Assembly (NCBI GenBank): GCA_017306415.1
Contig: JAFKIL010000001.1
Location: forward strand, 620,001 to 684,000
Direction of reading: 5' to 3'
DNA: 64,000 bases
Source: Microbacterium sp.
GTDB taxonomy: Bacteria > Actinomycetota > Actinomycetes > Actinomycetales > Microbacteriaceae
The notes below the pieces were generated by a model that worked only from the letters and a program-made list of their open reading frames with translations, searched no databases and was not told the DNA's origin. A program made the translations under genes and the position numbers. Numbering within the stretch: position 1 is the stretch's first letter; every line of letters starts with the position of its first letter. Of the stretch, positions 47,888-64,000 are shown piece after piece.

Positions 47888-47901
47888 GGGCCCAAGGTCC
47901 C
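47888..47901 (-). promoter_or_regulatory. GGGAC-type (DevR-like) motif upstream of adhP
   Basis: On the minus strand GGGACCTTGGGCCC, identical base for base to the site between mgtA and the metal ATPase gene (60511-60524). The element is 100 bp upstream of adhP. A weaker second copy on the plus strand, GGGACGAATCTTGG (47918-47931), lies 34 bp before the response-regulator start. Confidence 0.55.
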
Positions 47902-47925
47902 GCGCCGCCCGCGTCCTGGGACGAA

Positions 47926-47958
47926 TCTTGGTGACGTCTTGGCGACCCTCTGGTTGAC
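47926..47958 (+). repeat. Three tandem 11-bp repeats, candidate OmpR-type operator
   Basis: TCTTGGTGACG, TCTTGGCGACC and CTCTGGTTGAC follow each other without a gap. OmpR/PhoB-type regulators bind direct repeats at 11-bp spacing. The array lies 7 bp before the response-regulator start and overlaps its probable -10 region (TTGACT, 47954-47959). Confidence 0.6.
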
Positions 47959-47965
47959 TCGGAGC

Positions 47966-48643
47966 GTGGTCTCTCCGGCTGGTGCGCTCCCCCGTGTGCT
48001 GTACGTCGAAGACGACCCCGCGATCGCGGACATGACCATCGAGGTGCTCTCGGAGGTCTACGACGTCGTCCACGTCTCCGACGGCCGCACCGCCGTGACC
48101 CGGGCGCTCGGCGACCGCTTCGACGTCATGGTGATCGACCGGCGGCTGCCGGGTCTGGACGGGATCCAGGTGGTCGAGGCGGTGCGGACGGCGAAAATCA
48201 CCACCCCGATCCTGCTCCTCACCGCGCTCGGCGCGGTCGACGACCGGATCGAGGGCCTGGATGCGGGAGCCAACGACTACCTGGTGAAGCCCTTCGACTA
48301 CGGCGAGCTCCTCGCGCGCATGCGGGCGCTCGTCCGTGGATTCCGCGCCGAAGGACGCCGCCGCGCGCTCGGACAGTGGACCTTCGTGGCGGAGTCGTCG
48401 GCGCTCTTCGGGCCTTCCGGCGAGCGTGTTGCCCTCACCGTCACCGAGACGCGGATGCTGGACGTGCTCGCGGCCAGTCCGGACCACGTCTTCTCGCGCG
48501 ACGAGCTCATGCGCGCGGTCTTCGCGTCCGAGGACGCCCTGAGCTCCGTGGACACGTACGTCCACTACATCCGCCGGAAGACGTCGCCGGAGGTCATCGA
48601 GACCGTTCGCGGTCGGGGCTACCGCGCCGGAGCACCCGCGTGA
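47966..48643 (+). CDS. OmpR/PhoB-family response regulator
   Basis: A 225-residue protein with an N-terminal receiver domain and a C-terminal winged HTH. The acidic pocket (VEDDPA), phosphoacceptor Asp58 in MVIDRRLPG, Thr in LLLTALGA and Lys in YLVKPFDYGEL are all present. The effector domain ends with the usual VDTYVHYIRRKTSPEVIETVRGRGYR. The GTG at 47966 is the best start. Its stop overlaps the kinase start (GTGA). Three 11-bp repeats upstream suggest autoregulation. Confidence 0.93.
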   Translation: MVSPAGALPRVLYVEDDPAIADMTIEVLSEVYDVVHVSDGRTAVTRALGDRFDVMVIDRRLPGLDGIQVVEAVRTAKITTPILLLTALGAVDDRIEGLDAGANDYLVKPFDYGELLARMRALVRGFRAEGRRRALGQWTFVAESSALFGPSGERVALTVTETRMLDVLAASPDHVFSRDELMRAVFASEDALSSVDTYVHYIRRKTSPEVIETVRGRGYRAGAPA

Positions 48644-49623
48644 CCGCCGATCCGCGCGGCAGCCGTGCGAGTCTCGACCGCAGGCGCGTGCAGCGCTCGG
48701 CGATGCGGGTCGGGCTCCTCGTGGGCGCGGCGTCGGCGATCGTGATCACCGCCGGCGTGCTCATCCTCGTCGCGGTGCTGGTGCTCACCGCACGGCCCGA
48801 CGGACGGCCGCGCGGTCCCGGCGACCTCGACGGCGATCGCGTCGTCGTCGACGTCGACCACATCCTGCCCTGGGTGATCGGGCTGGGGATCCTCGGCGTG
48901 GTGCTCCTGGGACTGATCGCGTGGCTCGCTGCCCGGTGGGCGGTACGCCCGCTCACCGCGGCGCTCCAGCTGCAGCGGAACTTCGTCTCGGACGCCGGCC
49001 ACGAGCTGCGCACGCCCCTCACCGCGCTGACGAGCCGCATCCAGATCGTGCAGCGACGGCTCGCGAGGGGCGAGCCGGTCGCGGATGCCATCGTCGAGCT
49101 GCGCCGGGACGCGAAGACGCTCGATGACGTGCTGGCCGACATGCTCCTCACGGCGGAAGGCGGCAGCGCGCCGGACGAGCGCGCCGACGTGGGTGCGTGC
49201 GTGACCGCGGCCGTGCAGACACTGGCCTCGCTCGCGGCGGAGAACCACGTGACCGTCGAGACCCACGTCAGCGGCGGACCGGAAGCACGCATCCCCGCGG
49301 TGACCCTCACGCGGCTGTGCGTCGCACTCCTCGACAACGCGATCGGACATACCCGCACGGGGACCCGGGTCGCGGTGCGCGCGCACCGCAGCGGCCACGT
49401 CGTGGAGATCCGGGTCGTCGATTCCGGTGACGGCATCTCCGCACGGGACGCCGACCGGATCTTCGAGCGGTTCGCCCGCGGTGCGGAATCCGGCAAGCGC
49501 CGCGGCTTCGGGCTCGGGCTCGCACTCGTGCGGGAGGCGGCAACCCGCTACGGCGGCTCCGTGCGCATCGAGGAGACGTCGACGTCGGGGACGACCTTCC
49601 TGCTCGCGCTCCCCGCGGCGTGA
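48640..49623 (+). CDS. Sensor histidine kinase
   Basis: A 327-residue membrane kinase. Two helices (about residues 23-48 and 72-98) flank a short extracytoplasmic loop of about 23 residues rich in Arg and Asp, too small for a classical sensor fold. The catalytic His121 is in SDAGHELRTPLTAL, N-box LLDNAIGHT near 236, G1 DSGDGI, F-box IFERFARG and G2 GFGLGLAL. The small loop suggests sensing in or near the membrane. It converges on the electron-transfer module with a 2-bp gap. Confidence 0.93.
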   Translation: MTADPRGSRASLDRRRVQRSAMRVGLLVGAASAIVITAGVLILVAVLVLTARPDGRPRGPGDLDGDRVVVDVDHILPWVIGLGILGVVLLGLIAWLAARWAVRPLTAALQLQRNFVSDAGHELRTPLTALTSRIQIVQRRLARGEPVADAIVELRRDAKTLDDVLADMLLTAEGGSAPDERADVGACVTAAVQTLASLAAENHVTVETHVSGGPEARIPAVTLTRLCVALLDNAIGHTRTGTRVAVRAHRSGHVVEIRVVDSGDGISARDADRIFERFARGAESGKRRGFGLGLALVREAATRYGGSVRIEETSTSGTTFLLALPAA

Positions 49624-49625
49624 CG

Positions 49626-50420
49626 TCAGGCCGCCGTGGCCACCGCGACCTCGACACCCGAGATCCAGCGCCGCACCGCGCCCTCCCCGGTCACGAGCAG
49701 ACCCGAGGTGACCGGCGCGGCCGAGATCCAGGACAGGTCGCGGCCCGCCACGACCGCGGCCGTCGCCCAGACGTCCGCCGCGGTGAGATCCGGCGCGATG
49801 ACGGTGGCGCTGCGCACGCCGCGGGCGGGGACGCCCATCCGCGGGTCGACGATGTGCGCGCCGCGCTCCGCGGTGCCGGAGGTCGCGACGGCGCCGTCGC
49901 GCACGTCCACGGTGGCGAGCACCTCTCCGGGGTGGTCCGGGTCGGCGATGCCGACGTGCCAGGTCCACTCCGACCCCGGCGCCGTGCGCAGGCGCATGTC
50001 GCCCCCCACTCCGATGCCGACGGCGACGATGCCGGGCACCTCCATGAGCGGCGCAAGGTGATGCGCGCTGGCCCGCTCGACGGCCCAGCCCTTCACGTAC
50101 CCGGTGGGATCGAACCAGCCGCGCCAGTGGGCGGAGAACATCCCCCGCGTCGCGAGGGCCGCTTCTTCGCACGCGCGCGCGACCTCGCCGACCCACGGGT
50201 CGGCCGCGTCGATGGCGAGCTCGCCCCGGCGGATCCGCGAGACGTCCGAGTCGTCGCGGAATGGGGAGAAGACGCGCTCCACCTCACGGAGCTCGGCGAA
50301 GCAGGCGGCGACCGCGGCCTCCGCCTCGCCCGAGTCGCAGGACGCGCCGACGACGTGGATGCTGGCCGCCGTCCCCATCAGGTGCTCGACCCAGGCGCGG
50401 CGCGCGTGTCCGGCGCTCAT
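49626..50420 (-). CDS. apbE: FAD:protein FMN transferase
   Basis: A 264-residue ApbE that attaches FMN covalently to Thr in FMN-binding proteins using FAD. Conserved features are VFSPFRDDSDVSRI near 50, the GYVKGWAVERA motif near 115, TSGTAER near 175 and HIVDPRMG near 188, with a late ADVWATAAVV. No signal peptide or lipobox is seen, so it may act inside the cell or be exported by an unseen signal. Its start overlaps the stop of the FMN-binding protein (ATGA), which is its evident substrate. Confidence 0.9.
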   Translation of the reverse strand: MSAGHARRAWVEHLMGTAASIHVVGASCDSGEAEAAVAACFAELREVERVFSPFRDDSDVSRIRRGELAIDAADPWVGEVARACEEAALATRGMFSAHWRGWFDPTGYVKGWAVERASAHHLAPLMEVPGIVAVGIGVGGDMRLRTAPGSEWTWHVGIADPDHPGEVLATVDVRDGAVATSGTAERGAHIVDPRMGVPARGVRSATVIAPDLTAADVWATAAVVAGRDLSWISAAPVTSGLLVTGEGAVRRWISGVEVAVATAA

Positions 50421-50950
50421 TGCGCGGCCTGATCCAGCGCGGACTGAAGGGACTGGAGATATCCGCCGCTCGTGTAGGTGGCTCCCGAGATCATGTCGAT
50501 CTGGGCGCTCTGAGCCGAGATCGTCTCGGACACCAGCTGCGGGAGAGCCTGCTGGTTGATCTCGGCGTCCCGGCCGCTGCCGTTGGGATACTGCGGCACG
50601 TCGACCGCCGTGATCTTCCCGCCGCTGACCGTGACCTTGACCTGCACAGCGCCGTACGCGGTATCGACGGCCTGACCGGTGTAGGCGCCGTCCTTGAGCC
50701 CCGACGAGTTGCCGGAGGTGCCGGTGCTGCCGCCCGTCGTGCCGGTGCTGGCCCCGGACCCGCTCGTACCCTGGGTCGTCGTCCCGCTCGTCCCGGTCGT
50801 GCCGCTGGTGCCGCCGGTGCCGCTGGACGTCGTGCCGGTCCCCGTCGCTGTCGACGACAGCGGGACCGCCTCGCCGAGCGAGGTGCGGTAGCTGAACAGC
50901 AGGACGAGCCCGCTCAGGGTGGCGAGTGCGCCGTAGACGATCTTCTTCAT
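50417..50950 (-). CDS. FMN-binding domain protein (flavinylation target)
   Basis: A 177-residue protein with one N-terminal membrane helix (residues 5-20), a Ser/Thr/Gly-rich linker of about 55 residues (positions about 35-87), and a C-terminal FMN-binding domain. The flavinylation site is D-M-I-S-G-A-T, with Thr158 as the acceptor, exactly the D-x-x-(S/T)-G-A-T consensus used by ApbE. CAGGAGCC precedes the ATG. It sits between the ferric-reductase-like enzyme and apbE, so it should carry electrons on the outer face of the membrane. Confidence 0.92.
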   Translation of the reverse strand: MKKIVYGALATLSGLVLLFSYRTSLGEAVPLSSTATGTGTTSSGTGGTSGTTGTSGTTTQGTSGSGASTGTTGGSTGTSGNSSGLKDGAYTGQAVDTAYGAVQVKVTVSGGKITAVDVPQYPNGSGRDAEINQQALPQLVSETISAQSAQIDMISGATYTSGGYLQSLQSALDQAAQ

Positions 50951-50962
50951 GTCGGCTCCTGG

Positions 50963-52390
50963 CTAGACGGTGAATGCTTCGCTGTGGATGCGGCTGTCGT
51001 CGACGCCTGCCGCGCGCAGATCGGTGCGGACGGCGTCCATCCATGGGATCGGACCGCACAGGAAGACGTCGTACTCCTCGAGGTCGGGGGCCAGATGGCG
51101 GATCAGGTCGGGACCTGCCCACGCGCCGTGAGTCGCGGGCAGCCAGGTCGCGCCCGACCCGCCGCGCCGCCCGTTGAGCGTGAAGTGGCGCAGTCCCCGT
51201 TCGCGAGCGAGCCGCTGGATCTCTCGCAGCCGCATGCCGTCGCGATCGTCATGGTCGCGCGTGACGAGCGTGGCCTCACCCGGGCCGTATTCCTCGGACT
51301 CCAGCAGGGCGACCAGCGGGCCGACGCCTGCTCCTGCGCCCAGCATGAGGAGCTTGCGTCCGGTGCGGACGTCGCCGGTCATGTGGCCGTAGGGGCCTTC
51401 GAACAGCACGCGCGTGCCCCTGCGCAGCCGGCTCAGCCGGCGGGTGCCGTCGCCCACGATCCGGGCGGCGACCACCAGTTCATCGCCGATCGGGGCGCCG
51501 GCCAGCGAGAGCGGGTGGCCGCGGGTCCACCCCGGGCCGTCCAGGAAGCGCCACACGAAGAACTGTCCGGGCTTCGCATCCAGGCGGTGCAGTCCGCGGC
51601 CGCGCATCCGCACCGCCACGCCGCGCTTCCCGTCGGCCGACACCGACGTCACCCTGAGGTCGTGACGACGGGAGCGCCACAGCGGCACCACTACGCGGAA
51701 CACGACGACGGACGCCGCCACCACGGCCCACAGGGTCCACCAGTAGACGGTCGCGGCCGGGTTCGCGATGAAGTCCGCGCCCGTCCAGAGCATGTGCGGG
51801 ATCGCGAGGCCGACGCCGAGGTAGCCGTAGAGGTGCAGCAGGTGCCACGACTCGTAGCGCAGCTTGCGTCGCGCGCGCCGGATCGAGGTGACCACCACCA
51901 TGACGAGCAGGCCGGTCCCCGCGGTGGCCAGCAGCATCCCGGGGTAGTCCCACACGAACTGCCAGAGCTGCACGAAGGGGTTGATCGCGGCCTGCGCCGC
52001 ATAGCCGGCGACCAGCAGCACGATGTGCGCCATCAGCAGCCAGAAGGACCAGAATCCGACGAACCGGTGCAGCCGCGTGATGCCGTCGCGGCCGAAGCCC
52101 TTCTCGAACAGCGGGATGCGGGCCATCAGCAGCACCTGATACAGCAGCAGGTTCGCCGACACGAGGCCCGTGAGCCGGCCCAGGGTGTTGAGCGTGTCGG
52201 CGTTGAACGCGAACAGCGACTGGATGCCCGCACCGCCCACCCACAGCGCGACGACGAACAGGCTCGTGAGCCAGATGACGGCGGTCGCGGCGAGGCGCCA
52301 CGCTCCACGCCGCGACCGGGGACGGTCGACGGGCACGAGGGGCGCGGCGTCGCCTCGGGCGGGTGCGGTCCTCGCTGCGAGTGAGCTCAT
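50963..52390 (-). CDS. Ferric-reductase-like transmembrane oxidoreductase (FAD/NAD type)
   Basis: A 475-residue fusion of a six-helix ferric-reductase-like membrane domain (residues about 30-225) with an FNR-type FAD/NAD domain. Heme-ligand histidines are visible in LHRFVGFW, MAHIVLL, SWHLLHLYG and AIPHML. The FAD motif is HPLSLAG near 297, and NAD motifs are LGAGAGVGPLVALL near 350 and CGPIPWMD near 450. It should pass electrons from cytoplasmic NADH across the membrane to the flavinylated protein 12 bp downstream. A GGGAC half-site lies 30 bp upstream. Confidence 0.9.
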   Translation of the reverse strand: MSSLAARTAPARGDAAPLVPVDRPRSRRGAWRLAATAVIWLTSLFVVALWVGGAGIQSLFAFNADTLNTLGRLTGLVSANLLLYQVLLMARIPLFEKGFGRDGITRLHRFVGFWSFWLLMAHIVLLVAGYAAQAAINPFVQLWQFVWDYPGMLLATAGTGLLVMVVVTSIRRARRKLRYESWHLLHLYGYLGVGLAIPHMLWTGADFIANPAATVYWWTLWAVVAASVVVFRVVVPLWRSRRHDLRVTSVSADGKRGVAVRMRGRGLHRLDAKPGQFFVWRFLDGPGWTRGHPLSLAGAPIGDELVVAARIVGDGTRRLSRLRRGTRVLFEGPYGHMTGDVRTGRKLLMLGAGAGVGPLVALLESEEYGPGEATLVTRDHDDRDGMRLREIQRLARERGLRHFTLNGRRGGSGATWLPATHGAWAGPDLIRHLAPDLEEYDVFLCGPIPWMDAVRTDLRAAGVDDSRIHSEAFTV

Positions 52391-52420
52391 GACCCCATGG
52401 TGGGGTGGCCGCTTTGAGAT

Positions 52421-52434
52421 GGGACCAAGAATGC
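52421..52434 (+). promoter_or_regulatory. GGGAC-type motif (partial) upstream of the electron-transfer operon
   Basis: GGGACCAAGAATGC keeps the left half of the motif found elsewhere (GGGACCAA) but not the right half. It lies 30 bp before the reductase start. Confidence 0.35.
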
Positions 52435-52496
52435 GGCATCCTCAGCAATCGCATAGGAACCGCATCACTTTCCCCGCCGCCACGGAGCCGCGCCGA

Positions 52497-53744: not shown

Positions 53745-53855
53745 GCCGACACCGCGCTCGGCCGGTGGCGATGCTGGACGTGGGGGCAGCTCTTCTCGGC
53801 GCGCACGACGTCAACGCTAGGGGCAGTCGGAGACCGACCGCCAGGTCCGGATCGA

Positions 53856-54350
53856 CTACATCGCCGCCGGGACGGCGCTCTCGCGCTGGTCGGCTTTCTC
53901 CCGAGGCTCGTGCGCCACCGGATGCGGATGGACGATCAGCACCGGGCAATGGGCGTACTCGGCGCACGCGCTGCTGACCGATCCGAGGAGCAGGCCGGCG
54001 AATCCCCCGTGACCGCGACTGCCCAGCACGAGCATCGATGCGTGCGCACTCGCGGCGATCAGGCGCTTGGCGGCGGGACCGTTGGTGACCGAGATCGTGA
54101 GGTCGTCGGGGACCTCGTCGCCGAAGACGACCGTCACCGCGTCGTGGACGATCTGCCTCGCGTCCTCTTCGGGAGACCACCCCGCGACGCCGGCGTAGTC
54201 CATGAGTCCGGGATAGATCCAGGTGATCATGATCTCGATCGGCGCGCCCAGCGCTCCCGCGAGCCGCTTGGCGTAGGTGAGGGCGGCGATCGACGACGGC
54301 GAGCCGTCGATCCCGACGAGGATCGGTTCGTTCGATGTGAGGGTGTCCAT
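53856..54350 (-). CDS. Universal stress protein
   Basis: A 164-residue single-domain UspA protein. The ATP-binding loop GSRGHGGFAGLLLGSVS (near residue 110) matches G-x2-G-x9-G-S/T, and the N-terminus has PILVGIDGSPSS. ATP-binding USPs of this type are markers of hypoxia and growth arrest in actinobacteria. A GGGAC-type motif lies 34 bp upstream, sharing the gap with the BON gene. A second USP with an identical loop lies at the right edge. Confidence 0.94.
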   Translation of the reverse strand: MDTLTSNEPILVGIDGSPSSIAALTYAKRLAGALGAPIEIMITWIYPGLMDYAGVAGWSPEEDARQIVHDAVTVVFGDEVPDDLTISVTNGPAAKRLIAASAHASMLVLGSRGHGGFAGLLLGSVSSACAEYAHCPVLIVHPHPVAHEPREKADQRESAVPAAM

Positions 54351-54384
54351 GCCCTCATGGTCTCGTTGCGCCGATCGAGGGCGG

Positions 54385-54398
54385 GGGACGAAAGTCAC
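54385..54398. promoter_or_regulatory. GGGAC-type motif upstream of the USP gene
   Basis: GGGACGAAAGTCAC, the same 14 bases as at 57809-57822. On the minus strand it reads GTGACTTTCGTCCC, which closely follows the core of the DosR/DevR box. Confidence 0.6.
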
Positions 54399-54439
54399 AC
54401 GGGATCAGCCTGGGGCGCGCCGCGATCCCGCATGGCGAC

Positions 54440-54453
54440 GGGACCAAAGACCT
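54440..54453. promoter_or_regulatory. GGGAC-type motif upstream of the BON gene
   Basis: GGGACCAAAGACCT, 75 bp before the BON-protein start. Confidence 0.55.
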
Positions 54454-54528
54454 CGCCGGCGCGGCGCGATCCGCGCATCGTCGAGGTGAGCGCGCAGCGC
54501 GCGCGGAACGAGAGAAGCGAGGACGAAG

Positions 54529-55194
54529 ATGAGCATTGCAACAGACAGCGATCTGCAGATCCAGGCCGCCGTCCAGGCCGAGCTCGAGTGGACGCCGGAC
54601 GTGGATGCCGCCGGCATCGGCGTCGCCGTCGAGGACGGAGCGGTGACGCTCACGGGCGAGGTCGACAACTACGCGGAGCGCCTCGCTGCGAAGCACGCCG
54701 CGCTGCGCCTGCGCGGGGTGCGGGCCGTCGTCGACGCGATGTCCGTGCACCCGAGGTCGGCCGCCATCGCCACCGAGACGGACATCGCCAAGGAGGTCGA
54801 GCGCGCTCTGCGCACGGCCGTGAATGTTCCGGCGACCGTCCAGGCGACACTCGACGGTCATCACGTGACGCTGACGGGCGAGGTCCAGTGGGACTTCCAA
54901 AGGGTGGCGGCCAAGCGCGCCGTCCAGTACCTGCGCGGCGTGTACAGCGTGAACAACATGATCACGCTCACCGCGCGGCCGTCCGCGGAGGACGCCGAGG
55001 AGCGCATCAAGAAGGCGATCACCCGCAATGCGCAACTCGACGCGACGTCGATCGAGGTGTCCGCGAAGGGCAACACCGTGACCCTGACGGGCTCGGTCGC
55101 CTCGTGGGCGGAGCGCCGGCAGGCCGAGCGCGCCGCCTGGGCGTCGCCGCACGTCACGGATGTGGTGAACCGGATCCAGGTCCGGCCCTTCTGA
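54529..55194 (+). CDS. Three-BON-domain protein
   Basis: A 221-residue soluble protein made of three BON domains (about residues 5-73, 80-150, 153-221), each with the core VxLxGEVxxxxxRxxAxxAxxxxxGVxxVxNxI. No signal peptide or lipobox, so it is cytoplasmic or membrane-associated rather than the periplasmic OsmY kind. BON domains bind phospholipid. In actinobacteria such proteins accompany dormancy genes. AGCGAGGAC precedes the ATG. It diverges from the USP gene, both having GGGAC motifs. Confidence 0.92.
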   Translation: MSIATDSDLQIQAAVQAELEWTPDVDAAGIGVAVEDGAVTLTGEVDNYAERLAAKHAALRLRGVRAVVDAMSVHPRSAAIATETDIAKEVERALRTAVNVPATVQATLDGHHVTLTGEVQWDFQRVAAKRAVQYLRGVYSVNNMITLTARPSAEDAEERIKKAITRNAQLDATSIEVSAKGNTVTLTGSVASWAERRQAERAAWASPHVTDVVNRIQVRPF

Positions 55195-55220
55195 GTCCCG
55201 GGGGCGGGGGCGACCGGGAC
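55195..55220. terminator. Hairpin between convergent BON and erythromycin-esterase-family genes
   Basis: GTCCCGG and CCGGGAC are a perfect 7-bp stem around a G-rich loop, directly after the BON stop codon. There is no T-run. Confidence 0.45.
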
Positions 55221-55246
55221 TGTGCACCCGGGCGCCTCCGCCTTCG

Positions 55247-56545
55247 TCACATGCCGGTCGGGGCGGTCTCCCGCTCGGGCTCCTGCGGCTGCGGCTCGCC
55301 ACGGAGAGGCACCAGCGCCTCGGAGTGCTCGATCCAGATCAGCGCGTCGTAGCGGTCGCCCATCCTCGTCGGCACGTAGTTGCCGGCCTCCCGCTCGGGG
55401 TCGTACACCACTCCGATCGCGCGATGCCCCGCGGTCATCGACAGCCAGGGGCTGCCGCGGTCCGGGCCGAAGTCGATGACCGCGTCGCACCCGAGAGTCT
55501 GGTGCAGGATGTCCTCGTGGCTGCCGGCCCGCGCCGTCGGGACCGGCATCCGGAGTTCGGAGCGCCCCCACCCCTGCGCCGCGATCACCGACCCGCGGTG
55601 GGAGGCGAACCCGATGAGCAGGACCTGGGCCGAGCCGTGCCGCTCGCGAAGCAGCTGCCCGACGTTGAGCATCCCCGCATCCGACATCGACGTCCCGCGC
55701 GCATCGCCGACGTGGGTGTTGTGCTCCCACAGCACCCCGACCGAATCGCGTCCGAGGTGGCCGGCCAGGCGACCCACCGTGTCCGCCATGTGCTGATCGC
55801 GGAGGTTCCACGACAGCCGGTCGGCGCGGACCATGGCGCGGTAGTACTCCTCGGCGCCCGCCGCGACGATCGCGTTCTGCAGTGCGTCGAAGGCGTCGTC
55901 TCCATCCGAGGCGGCGCGCCGCCGCACGCGCGCGAGGAGCTCGACGACCTCCGCTTCGCACGTCTCGGGCACCAGCCGCGTGCTCCACGCGTACTGCTCC
56001 GGGTCTCCGCCGAAGGGCTCGAAGCAACGCCAGGCCCGCAGCGCGGCGGGGACGTCCTCCGGTGCGCGCTCGGCGAGCCACCCGATCGTGCGTGCGAGCG
56101 AGTCCCACAGTGAATAGATGTCGAGGCCGTAGAACCCCACGCGATGCTCGGCGGGCACCCGGCGGTTGTGATCGTGCAGCCAGTCGAGGAAGTCCGCGAC
56201 CTCCGCATTGGCCCACATCCACGTGGGCCAGCGCTGAAAGGACGCCAGGACGGCGCGCGCGTCCAGCTCCGCCGACTCGAAGCCACGGACCCAGCGATCG
56301 ATGCGCCAGCAGTCCGGCCAGTCCCCCTCGACCCCGATCCACGTGCAACGTCCGGCGACGATCAGCTGCCGCGTCAGCTCGGCGCGCCAGGAATAGAACT
56401 CGTGGGTGCCGTGGGACGCCTCTCCGATCGCGATGAACCGGCGGGAGCGCGCTCGTTCGACGAGCGGGTGGAGGTCGGCCGCCGCCTCCAGCCGTCCGGC
56501 TCGCTCGCGGATGTCCGTCCGCACGGCGTCGGATGCGGCCATCAT
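55247..56545 (-). CDS. Erythromycin-esterase-family protein
   Basis: A 432-residue EreA-like protein. The conserved GEASHGTHEFYSWRAEL (near residue 41, with the catalytic His and Glu), GVEGDWPDCWRIDRWV and GFYGLDIYSLWDSL are present, as is WEHNTHVGDARG near 270. The start overlaps the phosphoribosyltransferase stop by 4 bp, so they are one unit. In M. tuberculosis the same two domains are fused in one DosR-regulated protein (Rv2030c, as I recall), pointing to a dormancy or nucleotide-related role rather than macrolide resistance. Confidence 0.9.
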   Translation of the reverse strand: MMAASDAVRTDIRERAGRLEAAADLHPLVERARSRRFIAIGEASHGTHEFYSWRAELTRQLIVAGRCTWIGVEGDWPDCWRIDRWVRGFESAELDARAVLASFQRWPTWMWANAEVADFLDWLHDHNRRVPAEHRVGFYGLDIYSLWDSLARTIGWLAERAPEDVPAALRAWRCFEPFGGDPEQYAWSTRLVPETCEAEVVELLARVRRRAASDGDDAFDALQNAIVAAGAEEYYRAMVRADRLSWNLRDQHMADTVGRLAGHLGRDSVGVLWEHNTHVGDARGTSMSDAGMLNVGQLLRERHGSAQVLLIGFASHRGSVIAAQGWGRSELRMPVPTARAGSHEDILHQTLGCDAVIDFGPDRGSPWLSMTAGHRAIGVVYDPEREAGNYVPTRMGDRYDALIWIEHSEALVPLRGEPQPQEPERETAPTGM

Positions 56546-57204
56546 GAGCCGTGTCCCGCACGGGTCTGCGACGCACCGAGGAGACGCTCCACCTCTGCGT
56601 CCGAGGTCTGGTCGAAGTCGCGGTAGTACCGGCCGACGGCGTCGAAGTCCTCCGGCACGAGAAGGCAGAACACCCGATCGGCCACGTCGATGCGATCGAT
56701 GGCGGTCTGCGCGCCCACCGGCGCCGCAGCGTAGACGCGGGCGGCGTTCAGGCGCCGGGCGACACGGCAGGCGGCCGCCATCGTCGAACCGGTGGCGATG
56801 CCGTCGTCGACGATGACGACGTCGCGACCGTCCAGTTCGATCCGCGGACGATGCGCACGCAGGCGGGCGAGCCGGTCCCTGACGGCCGCGCGCTCGGCCG
56901 TCTCGACGGCGGCGAGCTGCTCCGGGGACACCCCGAGGCGCGCGATCAGATCGCGATCCACGACCTCGGTGCCGGATTCCCCGACGGCGCCCATGGCGAC
57001 CTCGGGATGACCCGGAACGCCGAGCTTGCGGACAACGATCACGTCGAGGGGTGCATGCAGCGCCGCGGCGACCTGTGCGGCCACCGGCACGCCGCCGCGC
57101 GGCAGACCGAGCACGACCACGTCGCCGAGTTCACGATGCGCGAGCATCCGCCCGAGCTGACGGCCGGCCTCGACCCGGTCGAGGAACCACCAGCGGTCGC
57201 CCAT
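56542..57204 (-). CDS. Phosphoribosyltransferase-family protein
   Basis: A 220-residue type I phosphoribosyltransferase-fold protein. The PRPP loop is DVVIVDDGIATGSTM near residue 127, preceded by the hood motif LGLPRGGVPVAAQVA near 33 and VRKLGVPGHPEVAMGAVGE near 58. Nucleobase specificity is not evident. ATG 57204 shares one base with the flavodoxin stop (TGATG), and its own stop overlaps the erythromycin-esterase start by 4 bp. Confidence 0.92.
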   Translation of the reverse strand: MGDRWWFLDRVEAGRQLGRMLAHRELGDVVVLGLPRGGVPVAAQVAAALHAPLDVIVVRKLGVPGHPEVAMGAVGESGTEVVDRDLIARLGVSPEQLAAVETAERAAVRDRLARLRAHRPRIELDGRDVVIVDDGIATGSTMAAACRVARRLNAARVYAAAPVGAQTAIDRIDVADRVFCLLVPEDFDAVGRYYRDFDQTSDAEVERLLGASQTRAGHGS

Positions 57205-57710
57205 CAGTGCACCGTCCGCCCCGACGCGAGCGCGCGCCCCCAGGTGCGCGCTCGGTCCCGCTCCCCCTCCACGAGCGGGCCCTCGTACCCCTCCACGAGG
57301 AAGCTCTCCGGGTCCGCGATGGTGAACCCCAGGCGTCGTGCCACCTTCGTGGCGCTGCGCGATGCCGCTCCGGGAAGGAGCGGGAAGTCGACGCGCGTGT
57401 CGAACGCGGCGAACACCTGCGGGTGCTCGCCGTGCGGAAGCGCTTCCAGCCACTCCCGGATGCCGAGGGGAACATCGCGCTCGGAGCCCCCGCGCCCCGC
57501 CGCCTCTCGCCGGCTGGCCGCGCGGGACATCGAGAACGTGTGCGTGGGTCCGCCGACGACCAGCAGGTCCACGTCGTCGGGAACGACCGGCGCCGCGTCT
57601 GCCACGTCGATCACATCCACGGTGCTCCCATTGGCCAGCCCCTCGCCGATCGCCTCCGCGATCGCCCGGGTGTTGCCGAACATGGTCTCGTAGATCACCA
57701 GCGATCTCAT
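57204..57710 (-). CDS. Flavodoxin-like protein
   Basis: A 168-residue flavodoxin-fold protein. The FMN phosphate loop is VIYETMFGNTRAIAEAI near residue 5, and the second contact GGPTHTFSMSR near 53 is typical of this group. It probably binds FMN and carries electrons in the cytoplasm. AAGGAGG precedes the ATG, the strongest ribosome-binding site in this block. It leads the flavodoxin-phosphoribosyltransferase-EreA operon, with a GGGAC motif 98 bp upstream. Confidence 0.88.
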   Translation of the reverse strand: MRSLVIYETMFGNTRAIAEAIGEGLANGSTVDVIDVADAAPVVPDDVDLLVVGGPTHTFSMSRAASRREAAGRGGSERDVPLGIREWLEALPHGEHPQVFAAFDTRVDFPLLPGAASRSATKVARRLGFTIADPESFLVEGYEGPLVEGERDRARTWGRALASGRTVH

Positions 57711-57808
57711 CGGTCCTCCTTCTCGGCGACGGTGTCGCCGGCGACGCAGGGCCGTCGCCGGCGTCCGCCCGCACGATTCGAGTGTCGGAGCAGCACGGCG
57801 CCCCGTGC

Positions 57809-57822
57809 GGGACGAAAGTCAC
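57809..57822. promoter_or_regulatory. GGGAC-type motif upstream of the flavodoxin operon
   Basis: GGGACGAAAGTCAC, identical to 54385-54398. It overlaps the stop codon of mgtA and lies 98 bp before the flavodoxin start. Confidence 0.6.
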
Positions 57823-60473
57823 TTCGCGCCGGGGCTGCGGGCGGAGAAGCGCGACGACCGCCGCAGCACCCGGTGCGAGTAGCCCCGGGTGCGCGGTCGG
57901 TGGACGTGCGGGATGCGCGGAGCGAGCGCACGGAAGAACCACGCCTTCGCGACCTCCACGCACACGAGATACGCGAGGACCATTCCGACCAGCGCGAGGA
58001 AGAACGGGGCCGGGAGCGGTCGGAAGCCCAGGAGGCCGGAGAGCGGGGAATAGGGCAGCCACACACCGATCGCGACGACGGCGAGCGACGCGGTCGTCAG
58101 GCCGAGCGAGGGCCGACTGCGCACGAAGGGCACGCGGCGCGTGCGGATGGCGAAGATGATCAGGGTCTGAGTCGCGATCGACTCGATGAACCAGCCCGCC
58201 TGGAACTCGCCCTCCGCGGCGTGGAAGACGAACAGCATGAGCCCGAAGGTCGCGAAGTCGAAGAGCGAGCTGATGGGGCCGAACACCAGCATGAACCGCC
58301 GGATGAAGCCGATGTCCCACCGCGACGGCGCCTCGAGCTGCTCGGGGTCCACGCGGTCGCCGGGGATCGCGAGCTGACCGCTGTCGTAGAGCAGATTGTT
58401 GAGGAGGATCTGCCCCGGCAGCATCGGCAGGAACGGCAGCACGACCGAGGCCACCGAGGCGCTCACCATGTTCCCGAAGTTGCTGGACGTCCCCATCAGC
58501 AGGTACTTGATGGTGTTCGCGAAGATCCGTCGCCCCTCGGTGACGCCGTCGGCGAGCACGCCGAGATCCTTGTCGAGGAGGAGCACGTCGGCAGCGTCCT
58601 TCGCCACGTCGGCGGCCGAGTCGACGGAGATGCCGATGTCGGCCTGGTGGAGGGCGAGCGCGTCGTTCACGCCGTCGCCGAGGAAGCCCACCGATCGCCC
58701 CTTGTGGCGCAGCAGCCGGATGATCCGCGCCTTCTGCTCCGGCGACACGCGGGCGAACACGGTGACGCGGGCCACGGCATCCTTCAGCTCCTCGTCGTCG
58801 AGGCGATCCACGTCCGCGCCGATGAGCGTTCCCCCCGATGCGACACCGAGATCGCTGAGCACCTTCTCGGCCACGGCCCCGTTGTCGCCGGTGGCGATCT
58901 TGACCGCGATGCCCAGCCGCGCCAGCTTCTCGAGCGACGCGCGCGCGTCGGCCTTGGGACGATCGACGAACACGAGGAAGCCGACGAGCGCGAACCCCGA
59001 CTCGCTCATCGGGGTGAGCGTCTCGCCGTCCGCTGCCGCTCTCGCCGCCACGGCGATCACCCGGGAACCGGCCGCGTACTGCGCCGCCAGGGCGTCGCTC
59101 GCCGCGGCGGGGATGTCGGCGCACCGGGCCATGACGTCCTCGGCGGCGCCCTTCATCACGACGCGCCGCGAGCCGTCATGCGCCTCGACGAGGACCGTCG
59201 TCCGCCGTCTCTCGTGGTCGAACGGCAGGATGTCGCGTCGGACATAGTCGCCGGGCCGCACATCCGTCGGACGCGGCGCCTCCCAAAGGGCGGCGTCGAG
59301 CGGATTGAGGCCCGGCACGGATCCCGGCGGCGTCGTGTAGTCCGTCTGCGTGGCGAGCAGTCCCAGCAGGAGCAGTTCGTCGGGCGCGGTGGTCCCGTCC
59401 GCCGCGAGAGCCCCGGCATAGCTGATCCGCCCGTCGGTGAGCGTGCCCGTCTTATCGGTCACGAGCACGTCCATGTCGCCGAGATCCTCGATGCAGACGA
59501 GCCGCTTCACCAGCACGCGCCGTCTCGCCAGCATCCGCGACCCGGTCGCGAGGCTCGCGCTGACGACCGCCGGCAGCAGCTGCGGGGTGATCCCCACCGC
59601 GATGGCCAGCGAGAAGAGAAGCGAGTCGAGCACGGGCCGACGGAGCAGGACGTTCGCCACGAAGATGAGGGTCGTCAGGATGAGAGCGACTTCGAGCAGC
59701 AGCACCGAGAATCTGCCCAGCCCGCGCTGGAACTCCGTCTGCGGCTGCGCTGTGCCCAGCCCCTGGGCGATCCGACCGAACTCGGTACGGGTGCCCGTCG
59801 CGACCACGACCGCGGTCGCCGACCCCGACTGCACCACCGTGCCCATGAGCGCACACGACGTCAGGTCTCCCGCGCCCGCGTCGGGCGCGACCGGTACCAC
59901 CGACTTCTCCACGGGCAGCGACTCGCCGGTGACGATGCCCTCGTCGCACGAGAGGCTGTGCGTCTCCAGCAGTCGCAGATCGGCGGGGACCACGTCGCCC
60001 GTGTCGACCTCGACGATGTCGCCGGGGACGAGGTCGGTGACATCGATCTCGTCCCTCGCACCATCCCGCAGCACGACCACCCTGTGGCGGAGCTGATCGT
60101 GCAGCGCATCCGCGGCCCGCTCCGCGCGGAACTCATTGACGAACCCGAGTCCGATGCTCGCCGCGAGGATCACCCCGATGATCACCGCGTTGGCGGCTTC
60201 ACCCAGGAAGACCGAGACTCCCGCGGTGACGAACAGGAGGATGAGGACGGGGCTGCGCAGTTGCCGACCCAGCACCCGCCATGGCCGGGCGCGGTGCGGT
60301 CGGAGCACGTTCGGCCCGCCAGCCGCCCGGCGCGTCGCCGCCTCCGCCGTCGACAGCCCCGCCGGACGCGCGCCGAGGCTCCGGAGGACTTCGTCGGCGT
60401 CCTGCGCGGCCGCGCCGCGCAGGGGCAGAGCGGGGGCGGACGAGAGGACGCGGGTGGGGCTGTGTTCGTCCAT
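57819..60473 (-). CDS. mgtA: Magnesium-translocating P-type ATPase (MgtA-like)
   Basis: An 884-residue P3B-type ATPase. The phosphorylation motif DKTGTLTDG is near residue 342, TGES near 220, the ATP-domain KGAAEDV near 440 and the hinge GDGVNDALALHQADIG near 600. About ten membrane helices, with GITPQLLPAVV in TM4 marking the Mg-type pump. The ATG at 60473 is used. MgtA imports Mg2+ when it is scarce. It diverges from a metal ATPase across an 85-bp gap with a GGGAC motif. Confidence 0.93.
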   Translation of the reverse strand: MDEHSPTRVLSSAPALPLRGAAAQDADEVLRSLGARPAGLSTAEAATRRAAGGPNVLRPHRARPWRVLGRQLRSPVLILLFVTAGVSVFLGEAANAVIIGVILAASIGLGFVNEFRAERAADALHDQLRHRVVVLRDGARDEIDVTDLVPGDIVEVDTGDVVPADLRLLETHSLSCDEGIVTGESLPVEKSVVPVAPDAGAGDLTSCALMGTVVQSGSATAVVVATGTRTEFGRIAQGLGTAQPQTEFQRGLGRFSVLLLEVALILTTLIFVANVLLRRPVLDSLLFSLAIAVGITPQLLPAVVSASLATGSRMLARRRVLVKRLVCIEDLGDMDVLVTDKTGTLTDGRISYAGALAADGTTAPDELLLLGLLATQTDYTTPPGSVPGLNPLDAALWEAPRPTDVRPGDYVRRDILPFDHERRRTTVLVEAHDGSRRVVMKGAAEDVMARCADIPAAASDALAAQYAAGSRVIAVAARAAADGETLTPMSESGFALVGFLVFVDRPKADARASLEKLARLGIAVKIATGDNGAVAEKVLSDLGVASGGTLIGADVDRLDDEELKDAVARVTVFARVSPEQKARIIRLLRHKGRSVGFLGDGVNDALALHQADIGISVDSAADVAKDAADVLLLDKDLGVLADGVTEGRRIFANTIKYLLMGTSSNFGNMVSASVASVVLPFLPMLPGQILLNNLLYDSGQLAIPGDRVDPEQLEAPSRWDIGFIRRFMLVFGPISSLFDFATFGLMLFVFHAAEGEFQAGWFIESIATQTLIIFAIRTRRVPFVRSRPSLGLTTASLAVVAIGVWLPYSPLSGLLGFRPLPAPFFLALVGMVLAYLVCVEVAKAWFFRALAPRIPHVHRPRTRGYSHRVLRRSSRFSARSPGAK

Positions 60474-60510
60474 GACGACACCAGTCGATACCCGCTCGCC
60501 GCCCGGAGAC

Positions 60511-60524
60511 GGGACCTTGGGCCC
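60511..60524. promoter_or_regulatory. GGGAC-type motif between the two P-type ATPases
   Basis: GGGACCTTGGGCCC, identical to the site upstream of adhP on the other strand. It is 37 bp before mgtA and centred about 42 bp before the GTG of the metal ATPase, which is consistent with activation of a leaderless promoter there (CATCCT, six bases before the GTG). Confidence 0.6.
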
Positions 60525-60558
60525 GCAGCGGCACGGTCGCGGCGGGCATCCTGACACC

Positions 60559-62484
60559 GTGCACCAGCCCCGTCGCACCGGTTCCGCTCCGTCTGCCCGA
60601 GCGGCGAGCGCGAGCCGCTATCCGGTCGTCGCAGCCCTCGCCCTCGTGCTCATCGCTGTCCTCGTCTGCGGGTGGATCGGGCAGCCGACGGTCGCGCGCG
60701 GGACGGCGGTCGTCGCCGTCGGGCTCTTCGTGCTGTGGACGCTGGCCGGTATGGTCCGCGATGTCCTGCACGGCCACGTGGGTCTCGACATCCTCGCGGT
60801 CGTCGCGATGGTCGCCACCCTGGCCGTCGATGAGTACGTCGCGGCGATCATCGTCGCGCTCATGCTCTCGGGAGGAGAGGCGTTGGAGGAGGTGGCCGCG
60901 CACCGGGCGAAGCGCGACCTGTCCGCCCTCCTGGACCGGTCGCCGCGCGTCGCGCACCGGCTCGCCGCGGACGAGCGGAGCGATGCGACCGGGGTGCAGG
61001 ACGTGGGAGTGGATGCGGTCGCCGTCGGCGACCTCCTCCTCGTCCGGCCGGCGGAGATCGTTCCGGTCGACGGGATCCTCGTCGCCGGCAGCGCGTCGTT
61101 CGACGAGTCGTCGCTCACCGGAGAGAGCATGCCGGTACACCGGTCGGCCGGCGAGGAGGTGCCGTCCGGCGCGATCAACGGCTCGCGGGCCGCCACGATC
61201 CGCGCCCTCCGCCCCGCCTCGGCCAGTCAGTATCAGCAGATCGTCGCGCTCGTCGCCGAGGCGCAGGACTCGAAGGCACCCGTGGTGCGCCTCGCGGACC
61301 GGTTCGCCGTGCCGTTCACGGCGGTCGCGCTCATCCTGGGAATCACGGCGTGGGCGCTCGCCGGCGACCCCCGGCGGTTCGCCGAGGTCCTCGTGCTCGC
61401 GACGCCGTGCCCGCTCCTGATCGCCGCCCCGGTGGCCTTCCTCGCCGGGCTGTCGCGCGCTGCGCGGTCAGGGGTCATCGTGAAGGGCGGGGCGATCGTC
61501 GAACGCCTGGCCCGGGTGAGGTCCGCGGCGTTCGACAAGACCGGCACGATCACGGTCGGAACCGCCCAGGTCGTCGGCGTCATCCCCGCCGCGGGTCAGG
61601 ATGCCGATGAGCTGCTCAGCCTCGCCGCGTCTGCGGAGCAGTACTCGACGCACGTCTTCGCCGAAGGCATCCGGCGGGCGGCCACCGGTCGCGGCCTCTC
61701 CCTGAAGCCCGCGTCGGCCGCCAGCGAAGGGGCGACGAACGGCGTGGTGGCGCGCATCGAGGGACGTGACGTCGTGGTCGGCAAGGAGTCGTTCGTTGCG
61801 TCCGTCGCGCCGGCGGTGGAGCCCGTGCCGGTCACGGCCGGGCAGGCCGTCGCCTATGTCGCGGTGGACGGCCGCTTCGCCGGCGCGCTCCTGCTGGCTG
61901 ACGATGCGCGGCGCGAGGCCTCCGATGTCATCGGCTGGCTCCGCCGCCACGGCGTCGAGCGGATCGCCATGCTCACCGGCGACGCACCCGCCACCGCGGA
62001 TTCCATCGCGCGCCGGGTCGGCATCGACGAGGTGCACAGCGCGCTCCGGCCGGCGGAGAAGGTGCAGCTGGCGGCGGACATGCAGCCGCGGCCCGTGCTG
62101 ATGGTGGGCGACGGGATCAACGACGCACCGGTCCTGGCCGCGGCCGACGTCGGCATCGCGATGGGGGCACGCGGGGGCACGGCGGCCGGCGACGCCGCCG
62201 ACGTCGTCGTTCTCGTCGACACGCTCACGGGAGTGGTGGATGCCGTCGCGATCGGGCGTCACACGGTGTCGGTGGCGCTCACGGCGATCTGGATCGGCAT
62301 GGCTCTGAGCGTCGCCCTCATGCTCGTCGCGATGACGGGGGTGATCCCGGCCGTCGCGGGCGCCCTCATCCAGGAAGGGGTCGACGTCGCCACGATCCTC
62401 TACGCCCTGCGAGCGCTCGGGCCGGGTCGCACCGAGCGGGCAGAGGCGGCCCGCGGCGTCACTCGCCGACCGCCATGTCGATGA
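60559..62484 (+). CDS. Heavy-metal-type P-type ATPase with TPC motif
   Basis: A 641-residue P1B-type ATPase with six to eight helices. DKTGT has Asp326, TGES is near 190 and GDGINDAPVLAAADVG near 515. The metal-site motif in the membrane is T282-P283-C284 (LATPCPLLIAAP), not the usual CPC or SPC, and there is no N-terminal metal-binding domain or CxxC. The transported ion is therefore unclear. GTG start. Its C-terminus overlaps the ADH gene on the other strand by 26 bp. Confidence 0.88.
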   Translation: MHQPRRTGSAPSARAASASRYPVVAALALVLIAVLVCGWIGQPTVARGTAVVAVGLFVLWTLAGMVRDVLHGHVGLDILAVVAMVATLAVDEYVAAIIVALMLSGGEALEEVAAHRAKRDLSALLDRSPRVAHRLAADERSDATGVQDVGVDAVAVGDLLLVRPAEIVPVDGILVAGSASFDESSLTGESMPVHRSAGEEVPSGAINGSRAATIRALRPASASQYQQIVALVAEAQDSKAPVVRLADRFAVPFTAVALILGITAWALAGDPRRFAEVLVLATPCPLLIAAPVAFLAGLSRAARSGVIVKGGAIVERLARVRSAAFDKTGTITVGTAQVVGVIPAAGQDADELLSLAASAEQYSTHVFAEGIRRAATGRGLSLKPASAASEGATNGVVARIEGRDVVVGKESFVASVAPAVEPVPVTAGQAVAYVAVDGRFAGALLLADDARREASDVIGWLRRHGVERIAMLTGDAPATADSIARRVGIDEVHSALRPAEKVQLAADMQPRPVLMVGDGINDAPVLAAADVGIAMGARGGTAAGDAADVVVLVDTLTGVVDAVAIGRHTVSVALTAIWIGMALSVALMLVAMTGVIPAVAGALIQEGVDVATILYALRALGPGRTERAEAARGVTRRPPCR

Positions 62485-63481
62485 CGAGCGACCCCGACGC
62501 GCGGCCGGCGCGAAGATCGTCGACGGCGTCGGCGGTCCGGGCGAAGGGATAGCGCGTCACGTGGGCGCGCAGTGCCAGATGCTCGGCCAGTCGAAGGAAG
62601 GCGGCACCGTCCTCCCGCGTGTTCGCGGTGACGGTGCGCAGGTCGCGCTCACGGAACAGATGATCGTCGTAGGTCATGGCGGGGATGTCGGTCATGTGGA
62701 TGCCTGCCAGCACCACCGTGCCGCCGGGCGCGGTGGCCGCCAACGCATCCTGCACGAGCTCACCCGCTGGCGCGAAGACGATGGCCGCGTCGAGCGGAAC
62801 GGGCGGGCGCTCGTGCTCCGACCCGACGAACGTCGCACCGACCGCGCGGGCGAGCGCCCGGTTCTCCTCGCCTCGGGTCATCGCGAACACCCGCGCCCCC
62901 GATGCCATCGCGACGGCGGCGGTGAGGTGACCGCTCGAGCCGAACCCGTAGATGCCGAGATCTCCGCCCGCCGGCAGGCGCGTACGGCTCAGGGCGCGGT
63001 AGCCGATGATGCCCGCGCACAGGAGCGGGGCCGTCGCGACAGCATCCGTGGATGCCGGGAGCGCGTAGGAGAACCGTTCGTCCGCGACAGCGTAGGGCGC
63101 GAAACCGCCGTCCCGATCCCATCCCGTGAAGGTCGCCGACTTGCAGAGGTTCTCGCGACCAGAGAGGCACCACGTGCACGCGCCGCAGGTGCGGCCGAGC
63201 CATGCGACGCCGACGAGCGCGCCCGGGCGGAAGCGCACGGCATCCGCCCCGCCGTCGACGACCTCGCCCACGATCTGGTGCCCGGGCACCAGAGGCGACC
63301 TGTGCGGAGGGATCTCGGCATCGATGACGTGGAGGTCGGTCCGGCACACTCCGCACGCGCGCACGCGCAGTAGGACGTCGTGTCCGGTCGGCCGCGGCAC
63401 CTCCATCGTCACGAGGCGGAGGTCACCGGTGGACGACGTCACCCACGCGGACATGTGAGGAGGGATCTCGGCGCCAGGCAT
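62459..63481 (-). CDS. Zinc-dependent alcohol dehydrogenase
   Basis: A 340-residue medium-chain dehydrogenase. Catalytic zinc ligands are in CGVCRTDLHVID and PGHQIVGEV, structural zinc cysteines in CGACTWCLSGRENLC near 105, and the NAD motif YGFGSSGHLTAAVAMA near 175. It is the second such enzyme in this block, with about the same ligand pattern as adhP but a different chain length and little other identity. ATG 63481 is chosen over 63538 because the GGGAC motif at 63516-63529 would otherwise fall inside the gene. ATG 63454 is a third option. Confidence 0.88.
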   Translation of the reverse strand: MPGAEIPPHMSAWVTSSTGDLRLVTMEVPRPTGHDVLLRVRACGVCRTDLHVIDAEIPPHRSPLVPGHQIVGEVVDGGADAVRFRPGALVGVAWLGRTCGACTWCLSGRENLCKSATFTGWDRDGGFAPYAVADERFSYALPASTDAVATAPLLCAGIIGYRALSRTRLPAGGDLGIYGFGSSGHLTAAVAMASGARVFAMTRGEENRALARAVGATFVGSEHERPPVPLDAAIVFAPAGELVQDALAATAPGGTVVLAGIHMTDIPAMTYDDHLFRERDLRTVTANTREDGAAFLRLAEHLALRAHVTRYPFARTADAVDDLRAGRASGSLVIDMAVGE

Positions 63482-63515
63482 AGCGCCATCCCAGCGGCGC
63501 CCGATCCCGGTGGGG

Positions 63516-63529
63516 AGGACGAAGGTCCC
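63516..63529 (-). promoter_or_regulatory. GGGAC-type motif upstream of the second alcohol dehydrogenase
   Basis: On the minus strand GGGACCTTCGTCCT, 34 bp before the chosen start codon, the same distance as at the USP gene. Confidence 0.6.
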
Positions 63530-63642: not shown

Positions 63643-64000
63643 TCACGCTGCGACGGCGTCGCGGGGCGGGTGGTAGATCAGCACCGGACATCGCGCGTGC
63701 TCCGCGCATTGAGCGCTGACGGATCCGAGCAGGAGACCGGCGAACCCGCCATGCCCGCGGCTGCCGACGACCAGCAGGTCGGCCGCTGCACTCTGACGGA
63801 TCAGCACCTCGGCGGCGTCCCCCTCGTGGATCTCCGCTGTGATCCGGGCGGGCGGGTCGTTCGCGAACGCCCGCGTGATCGCCTCCTCGAGCCGGACCTC
63901 CGCCTCTTCGCGCAGGTCCGCGGGTCCGACCGGAAGCCCGATGTAGCCGGTCGGCGATGTCCAGGCGGTGACGGCGACGACTGTCGCCCCGAGGGTCTCG
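63643..64000 (-). CDS. Universal stress protein, cut by the window edge
   Basis: The minus strand is open from the right edge to a TGA at 63643-63645, giving 118 residues of C-terminal part. The ATP-binding loop GSRGHGGFAGLLLGSVS is identical to that of the USP at 53856-54350, and the end reads CPVLIYHPPRDAVAA. The start lies beyond the window. It is a full-length-looking USP domain from about its second helix onward. Confidence 0.9.
   Translation of the reverse strand, partial: ETLGATVVAVTAWTSPTGYIGLPVGPADLREEAEVRLEEAITRAFANDPPARITAEIHEGDAAEVLIRQSAAADLLVVGSRGHGGFAGLLLGSVSAQCAEHARCPVLIYHPPRDAVAA

Follow-up and report, generated by a model that had tools for sequence, protein, structure and literature searches.

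Does a 14-bp palindrome scattered over the right-hand part of a 64,000-nucleotide stretch of Microbacterium sp. DNA (assembly GCA_017306415.1, C1:620001-684000; hereafter the window) mark a set of genes under control of a DevR/DosR-like regulator, as an earlier note made from the sequence had proposed? The analysis described here indicates that it very probably does, and that the palindromes belong to a DevR/OsdR-type dormancy regulon gathered in one ~36-kb chromosomal island. Coordinates below are those of the window and are continued past its right edge, such that the position on contig C1 equals the number plus 620000. The island spans 47888 to 84079 (contig 667888-704079), or ~1% of the genome, and the window edge cuts through its middle, leaving ~20 kb beyond the right edge. 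Because of this cut, the note was correct in reporting no DevR-type regulator within the window. Its wider proposal gained support, since the regulator pair was found and genes for universal stress proteins (USPs) are concentrated in the island.

All eight motif copies listed in the note lie where it placed them, and on the strand given where one was given. With one mismatch allowed, the loose pattern GGGACNNNNGNCNC was not enriched in the window (169 found vs 236 expected), so the claim for a motif rests on the palindromic form GGGACNWWNGTCCC. With up to one mismatch, the latter had 51 sites in the genome compared to 10 for a control pattern read backwards, and 15 of the 51 fall in the island, where 0.49 were expected (Poisson P ~1e-17). 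Gap statistics were computed over the window plus its right flank, a 104-kb stretch in which gaps make up 8,253 of 104,000 bases (8%), and every one of its 15 sites lies between 47888 and 84079. By a comparison that the note had set out, the motif was not equally frequent in genes and gaps: 12 of the 15 sites touch gaps (4/5 within the window alone). The preference for gaps described in the note held, but the copy at 63516 falls inside the long form of an alcohol dehydrogenase open reading frame (ORF; start 63538). This site and those at 76284 and 76318 are inside ORFs, near their beginnings, and the called starts of these ORFs are probably too early. Base counts of 16 island boxes, namely the 15 pattern sites and a hand-added one at 54440 with 2 mismatches, gave the palindromic consensus GGGAC(C/G)WW(G/C)GTCCC with an outer C/G preference. 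The island thus carries a DevR-type palindromic box in several copies upstream of candidate targets:

47888..47901, minus strand: box GGGACCTTGGGCCC, between adhP (minus) and an OmpR-type response regulator gene (plus); NANNNT at offset 23 in both directions (GAGAGT / AATCTT)
47918..47931, plus strand: weak copy GGGACGAATCTTGG, containing AATCTT, the plus-direction -10 of box 47888
54385..54398, minus strand: box GTGACTTTCGTCCC; -10 GACCAT at offset 23
54440..54453, plus strand: box GGGACCAAAGACCT, upstream of a BON gene; -10 CATCGT at offset 23
57809..57822, minus strand: box GTGACTTTCGTCCC, ahead of the flavodoxin operon; -10 GACACT at offset 23; leader predicted at 64 nt
60511..60524, plus strand: box GGGACCTTGGGCCC, common to a Mg-ATPase gene (minus, 37 nt) and a heavy-metal ATPase gene (plus); offset 23 reads CATCCT on the heavy-metal side and TCGACT, with no A, on the Mg side
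63516..63529, minus strand: box GGGACCTTCGTCCT, 34 nt before ATG 63481; offset 23 reads TGGGAT, with no A
64143-64156: perfect box, 35 nt before the ATG of the USP gene at 63643-64107
66608 to 84079: nine further boxes, beyond the window edge

What ties these boxes to promoters is their distance to a -10 element. For each box and each direction we took the nearest gene start within 160 nt, which gave 23 promoter directions; start codons served in this count only to pick the directions. The hexamer NANNNT begins exactly 23 bases after the box in 15 of the 23 directions; the remaining 32 offsets between 1 and 33 each had it in 0 to 2 directions, and its background frequency in gaps was 0.028. 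Three directions have their -10 within an adjacent box; without them, the count was 12/20 (P ~8e-13, corrected for 33 offsets). At zero mismatch the composite of box, N22 and NANNNT had 10 genome matches, 8 of them in the island (reversed control, 0); at one mismatch it had 27, 18 of them in the island (reversed control, 4). Given a -10 at -12 to -7, this offset would place the box at -48 to -35 relative to the predicted transcription start, centred on -41.5 and overlapping the -35 element.

On the same geometry, start codons 34-35 nt from a box would coincide with the predicted transcription start, and such genes are predicted to be transcribed leaderless. In M. marinum, -10 elements most often read YANNNT, and transcripts whose 5' leaders measure 0-3 nt are reported to be functionally leaderless (PMC8022548). 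Boxes 98-100 bp from their genes would share the identical promoter geometry, with a leader of ~65 nt. The two distance groups seen in the note are therefore better described as one rule, a fixed box-to--10 spacing with varying leader lengths. In its shorter group, the USP gene does lie at 34 nt, as does the second alcohol dehydrogenase gene when counted from the re-placed ATG 63481, whereas mgtA lies at 37 nt and the response regulator reaches 34 only from the weak copy 47918 to a GTG at 47966. For adhP, the box is 100 nt from the probable ATG at 47787 and 34 nt from a GTG (47853) further upstream. The nearest start was 34-35 nt away for 8 of the 16 boxes (6/14 minus two re-placed starts), a set that includes the adhP GTG. 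Gene starts came from a simple in-house caller, and those at 63481 and 76249 were re-placed after the box was seen.

Neither of the two weaker copies in the note stood up as a motif site. The copy at 47918 coincides in part with the -10 of box 47888, so it is probably not an independent box and was rejected, while 52421 was discarded as a half site only, with a -10-like CACCAT at offset 19 (by eye), off the rule. Boxes 76284 and 76318 (L056:12284-12331) lie 34 bp apart at a divergent gene pair, each having its GACCTT/GACTTT core precisely where the other would have its -10, so that occupancy of a box may block the promoter in the opposite direction.

The note had expected a DevR homologue with a GAF-type kinase in the genome, and the two are neighbours in the right flank, the kinase gene beginning 219 bases past the window's right edge:

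64219-65970 (C1:684219-685970), plus strand: DevS/DosT-like kinase gene (devS), with GAF, HisKA_3 and HATPase domains
65967-66599 (C1:685967-686599), plus strand: DevR-like regulator gene (NarL family), adjoining the kinase gene

The best PDB matches of the kinase were DosT (2vzw, E 3e-46) and the GAF domains of DevS/DosS, and its ATPase part matched DosT 3zxq. Its His150 and Tyr172 align with DosS His149, the proximal haem ligand, and Tyr171, the distal hydrogen-bonding residue (PMC4082495). Judged by sequence, it is thus a GAF-type histidine kinase with the haem-ligand His, and the conserved residues suggest that it binds haem. The regulator is closest to M. tuberculosis DevR (3c3w, E 5.5e-69; next VraR, E 9.5e-42); it has the phospho-acceptor Asp at 54. 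M. tuberculosis DevR has the same recognition helix, EKTVKNYV, which 59 of the 69 related regulators examined share exactly and from which ten differ by one residue. NCBIfam has no above-cut-off model for the Microbacterium regulator.

We propose that the haem-GAF sensor kinase, on losing oxygen or binding nitric oxide or carbon monoxide, would autophosphorylate and pass the phosphate to the adjacent DevR. Phosphorylated DevR would bind the palindromes, most of them at ~-48 to -35, where it would replace the -35 element and recruit RNA polymerase to the -10 beginning 23 nt after the box. Under this scheme the island would function under oxygen limitation.

A DevR-type regulon answering to a non-oxygen signal, in which the kinase senses redox state or another ligand and the island serves as a general starvation/stress module, would differ from this proposal only in the signal, and we regard it as unlikely but not negligible. 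Two points favour it: neither a respiratory nitrate reductase nor an Hsp20 or nitroreductase domain was present among the 30 region proteins scanned with Pfam, which do not comprise all island ORFs, and OsdR of S. coelicolor also affects developmental genes (PMC5069765). What argues for a gas ligand is the conservation of the haem-ligand and distal Tyr positions, together with Gly at the position of DosS Glu87, a DosT-like state that has been tied to stable oxygen binding; Glu87 vs Gly is a proposed, disputed cause of the DosS/DosT difference (PMC4082495). A kinase scan of named genomes gave 573 loci, of which the best 80 (46 from Microbacteriaceae and 34 others, hand-sorted by record title) were compared. 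In these 80 kinases, picked for similarity to the Microbacterium kinase (L072-L151), the residues matching His149 and Tyr171 were kept in 80/80 and the Glu87 position was Gly in 80/80. Within this similarity-chosen set the DosT-like state appears to be the usual one, and Glu87 a peculiarity of DosS.

We compared 35 same-genus genomes, including our own, of which 15 were classed as kinase-bearing (E < 1e-90) and one (G029, E 1.4e-36) was placed among those without. Composite sites with zero mismatch at a spacing of 23 or 24 occurred in 12/15 kinase-bearing vs 2/20 kinase-less genomes, and in 10/15 vs 1/20 at spacing 23 alone; in the other genomes of the genus, 20 of 27 spacing-23 sites lie within 25 kb of the kinase. 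The gene for a beta-CASP nuclease was present in 6/15 vs 0/20. The phosphoenolpyruvate (PEP)-synthase-type gene of G017 has its box 34 nt before the ATG, the distance seen in our island, and none of the three PEP-synthase copies in kinase-less genomes is preceded by one. Our genome has both a box-bearing and a box-less copy, the second gene (C4:373897-376263) being 74% identical to the island copy.

In the 46 Microbacteriaceae kinase loci we counted 96 boxes with up to one mismatch, and 55 in the 34 others; three of the four control palindromes gave 8-24 and 6-10, respectively. Offsets 23 and 24 again stood out, with NANNNT in 34 and 49 of 192 directions (83/192) in Microbacteriaceae loci, compared to 10 or fewer elsewhere in offsets 1-39, and in 2 and 27 of 110 directions (29/110) in the others, compared to 6 or fewer. 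Zero-mismatch boxes in the Microbacteriaceae loci had the hexamer at 23 or 24 in 6/14 directions. Boxes lay within 260 bp of USP1 (8/18), ADH2 (7/11), flavodoxin (6/14) and PNPOx (9/29) homologues in these loci; for random windows the figure was 117/4000. No such box accompanied any of the 7 Mg-ATPase homologues and one accompanied 1/7 beta-CASP homologues in Microbacteriaceae loci, while USP1 homologues outside the family had 0/9. Homologues of EreA, the phosphoribosyltransferase and PfkB were not found in these best 80 loci.

These comparisons make it improbable that the boxes belong to a different regulator, be it the OmpR-type protein (47996-48643) or another NarL-type one. There are candidates: 19 GerE-domain matches turned up in the genome, 18 of them above the curated cut-off, and the island itself encodes an OmpR-type pair that has a box of its own. 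However, the normal target of OmpR-type proteins is a direct repeat, which counts against that candidate, box presence tracks the DevS-type kinase within the genus, and the combination of box and -10 spacing recurs around devS in other genera as well. The box moreover resembles published OsdR sites, e.g. AGGGACCTTCGGCCCC (PMC5069765). A chance palindrome or structural repeat without regulatory role would fit the lack of enrichment of the loose form in the window, but deserves almost no credence given the clustering, the gap preference, the single-base phasing to the -10 and the co-occurrence with the kinase.

Several results weigh against a DevR/OsdR-type regulon organized as we propose. In the kinase loci, the box count was only ~2-fold that of the commonest control palindrome (96 vs 47 in Microbacteriaceae; 55 vs 24 in others), and the ten zero-mismatch boxes outside Microbacteriaceae had the hexamer at offset 24 in 1/20 directions and at offset 18 in 5/20. 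Within the genus, three kinase-bearing genomes (G010, G022 and G023) lack a composite site, and the reversed control gave one match in each of 2/35 genomes at spacing 23, both kinase-less, and of 6/35 at spacing 24, four with the kinase. The Fisher P of 5e-5 for the co-occurrence at spacing 23 or 24 is a guide only, because same-genus genomes share ancestry and are not independent. Only 3/6 PEP-synthase homologues in the other kinase-bearing genomes have a spacing-23 box before them, and 3/5 beta-CASP homologues in kinase-bearing relatives have no box; the beta-CASP box has 1 mismatch without the -10 spacing in G017, and 2 mismatches with spacing 24 in G003. In our own genome, the 34-nt distance of two genes depends on re-placed start codons, the perfect box 64143, a candidate site for autoregulation, lies 62 nt upstream of devS but has a poor hexamer (CCCGGT) at offset 23 in that direction, and no box was found on contig C3, which holds the one Hsp20 match (C3:53300), among the matches listed.

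For Microbacterium and its relatives, it is possible, although we lean slightly the other way, that DevR takes over the role of the -35 element from one fixed position and that a core of its targets, comprising several USPs, the PEP-synthase-type enzyme, a beta-CASP nuclease and an alcohol dehydrogenase, is transcribed leaderless. If so, dormancy genes would have in common both their transcriptional switch and a mode of translation suited to resting ribosomes, and the module would have been gained or lost within one genus.

Island proteins were annotated with NCBIfam and, for the 30 proteins noted above, with Pfam. Within the window, the genes associated with the boxes are:

46777..47787, minus strand: alcohol dehydrogenase AdhP (scores above the cut-off of NCBIfam NF006940); box 47888 lies upstream
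47996-48643, plus strand: OmpR-type response regulator, GTG at 47966, with a kinase gene alongside
53856..54350, minus strand: USP, ATG 34 nt after box 54385, predicted leaderless
54529..55194, plus strand: triple BON-domain protein
55247..57710, minus strand: flavodoxin, phosphoribosyltransferase and erythromycin-esterase-like (EreA-like) genes, a probable operon
57819..60473, minus strand: Mg-type P-type ATPase (TIGR01524, above cut-off)
60646..62484, plus strand: heavy-metal-type P-type ATPase (TIGR01525, above cut-off)
62459..63481, minus strand: zinc alcohol dehydrogenase (TIGR02822, above cut-off), start moved from 63538 to ATG 63481
63643-64107 (window part 63643..64000), minus strand: USP, cut by the window edge

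Beyond the window, this last USP gene, devS and devR are followed by genes for an SDR protein, a PNPOx-like protein, a 144-aa protein, the beta-CASP nuclease and the PEP-synthase-type enzyme, the last a dikinase-family protein matching the NCBIfam phosphoenolpyruvate synthase model above cut-off. Then come a CAAX-protease-like protein, a USP, a GyrI-like protein, a double USP, a PfkB-type hexose kinase, 70-aa and 222-aa proteins and an ArsR-type regulator. Farther right, box 84066 precedes a weakly bactofilin-like gene and a flavodoxin gene. The island holds 6 of the 11 Usp-domain matches in the genome; the EreA-like gene is rare, being present in 3/58 genomes. Beside the OmpR-type regulator pair, 49626-52390 (minus) encodes an ApbE-type, FMN-binding and ferric-reductase-like cassette of the flavinylation-based electron transfer type, preceded only by the half site 52421 with its unusual spacing. 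To the right of the densest part of the island, 78293-83343 (L056:14293-19343) looks like an arsenic-response block, in which only the ArsR-type regulator is annotated.

We read the context of 13 of the 36 sites outside the island. Eight fall inside called genes (C11:298585, C1:121486, C1:443187, C1:452120, C1:1004487, C1:747953, C4:523843 and C4:773725). At C10:108916 (L062:5917-5930), GGGACCATGGTCCC is palindromic throughout and keeps the -10 spacing exactly; a 214-aa ORF with no Pfam match starts 34 nt further on, and this ORF is a plausible extra target of the regulon. The -10 spacing is also present at C13:91612, 110 nt before a 143-aa ORF; C12:89362 has spacing 24 and lies 213 nt before a DUF2202 gene; C13:18112 and C11:86049 are in gaps and do not match the composite pattern in full.

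Among titles and abstract starts of the open-licence literature we found no report of a DevR/DosR regulon in Microbacterium or other Micrococcales, which weakly supports the view that it has not been described before. What appears to be new here is the regulator pair next to the window edge, the rule of a spacing fixed to a single base, the prediction of leaderless targets and the co-occurrence of boxes and kinase within the genus. These findings would extend DevR/DosR-type control in response to oxygen starvation, best known from mycobacteria and Streptomyces, to Microbacterium. Since some Microbacterium species have the module and others do not, close relatives with and without it are available for comparison outside mycobacteria, and the exact box-to--10 spacing offers a precise criterion by which to look for such regulons in other actinobacteria.

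The closest known systems are Streptomyces OsdR and mycobacterial DevR/DosR. As with OsdR/OsdK of S. coelicolor (SCO0204/SCO0203), where, of the 22 genes from SCO0198 to SCO0219, 20 were predicted to be under the control of sites around osdR, the regulator pair lies within its own target cluster and the palindrome is of the same kind, the published consensus being AGGGCCGATCGGCCCT compared to GGGAC(C/G)WW(G/C)GTCCC here (PMC5069765). Predicted OsdR targets include USP, zinc alcohol dehydrogenase, pyruvate phosphate dikinase and PNPOx genes, all types shared with the island; the PEP-forming dikinase-family enzyme is annotated as pyruvate phosphate dikinase in S. coelicolor (SCO0208) and matched PEP synthase in Microbacterium. 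The Streptomyces cluster also has nitrate reductase and nitroreductase genes, whereas the Microbacterium one has P-type ATPase, BON, EreA-like, beta-CASP and PfkB-type genes. A few OsdR positions in Table 1 of PMC5069765 (-47 to -53, e.g. SCO0214) would be near the 34-nt distance, provided they refer to the 5' end of the 16-mer, but most are farther from the start codon, unlike here.

DevR and DosT of M. tuberculosis are the closest solved relatives of the Microbacterium pair. Mycobacterial DosR targets include USPs, EreA/phosphoribosyltransferase, PfkB and P-type ATPase genes, types matched by those of the island, and position 6 of the box is T in the mycobacterial consensus, where the boxes here mostly have C or G. 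Unlike M. tuberculosis, with its two kinases DosS and DosT, Microbacterium has a single such kinase, with Gly at the Glu87 position (no second DosT-type kinase at E <= 1e-30 in our genome), most of its targets are in one island, and control of an HspX/Hsp20 gene, part of the strict M. tuberculosis set, was not seen, there being no box on the Hsp20 contig among the matches listed. In M. tuberculosis, the DevR site proximal to the transcription start point overlaps the -35 element (PMC3029386), the arrangement that is predicted for the boxes here.

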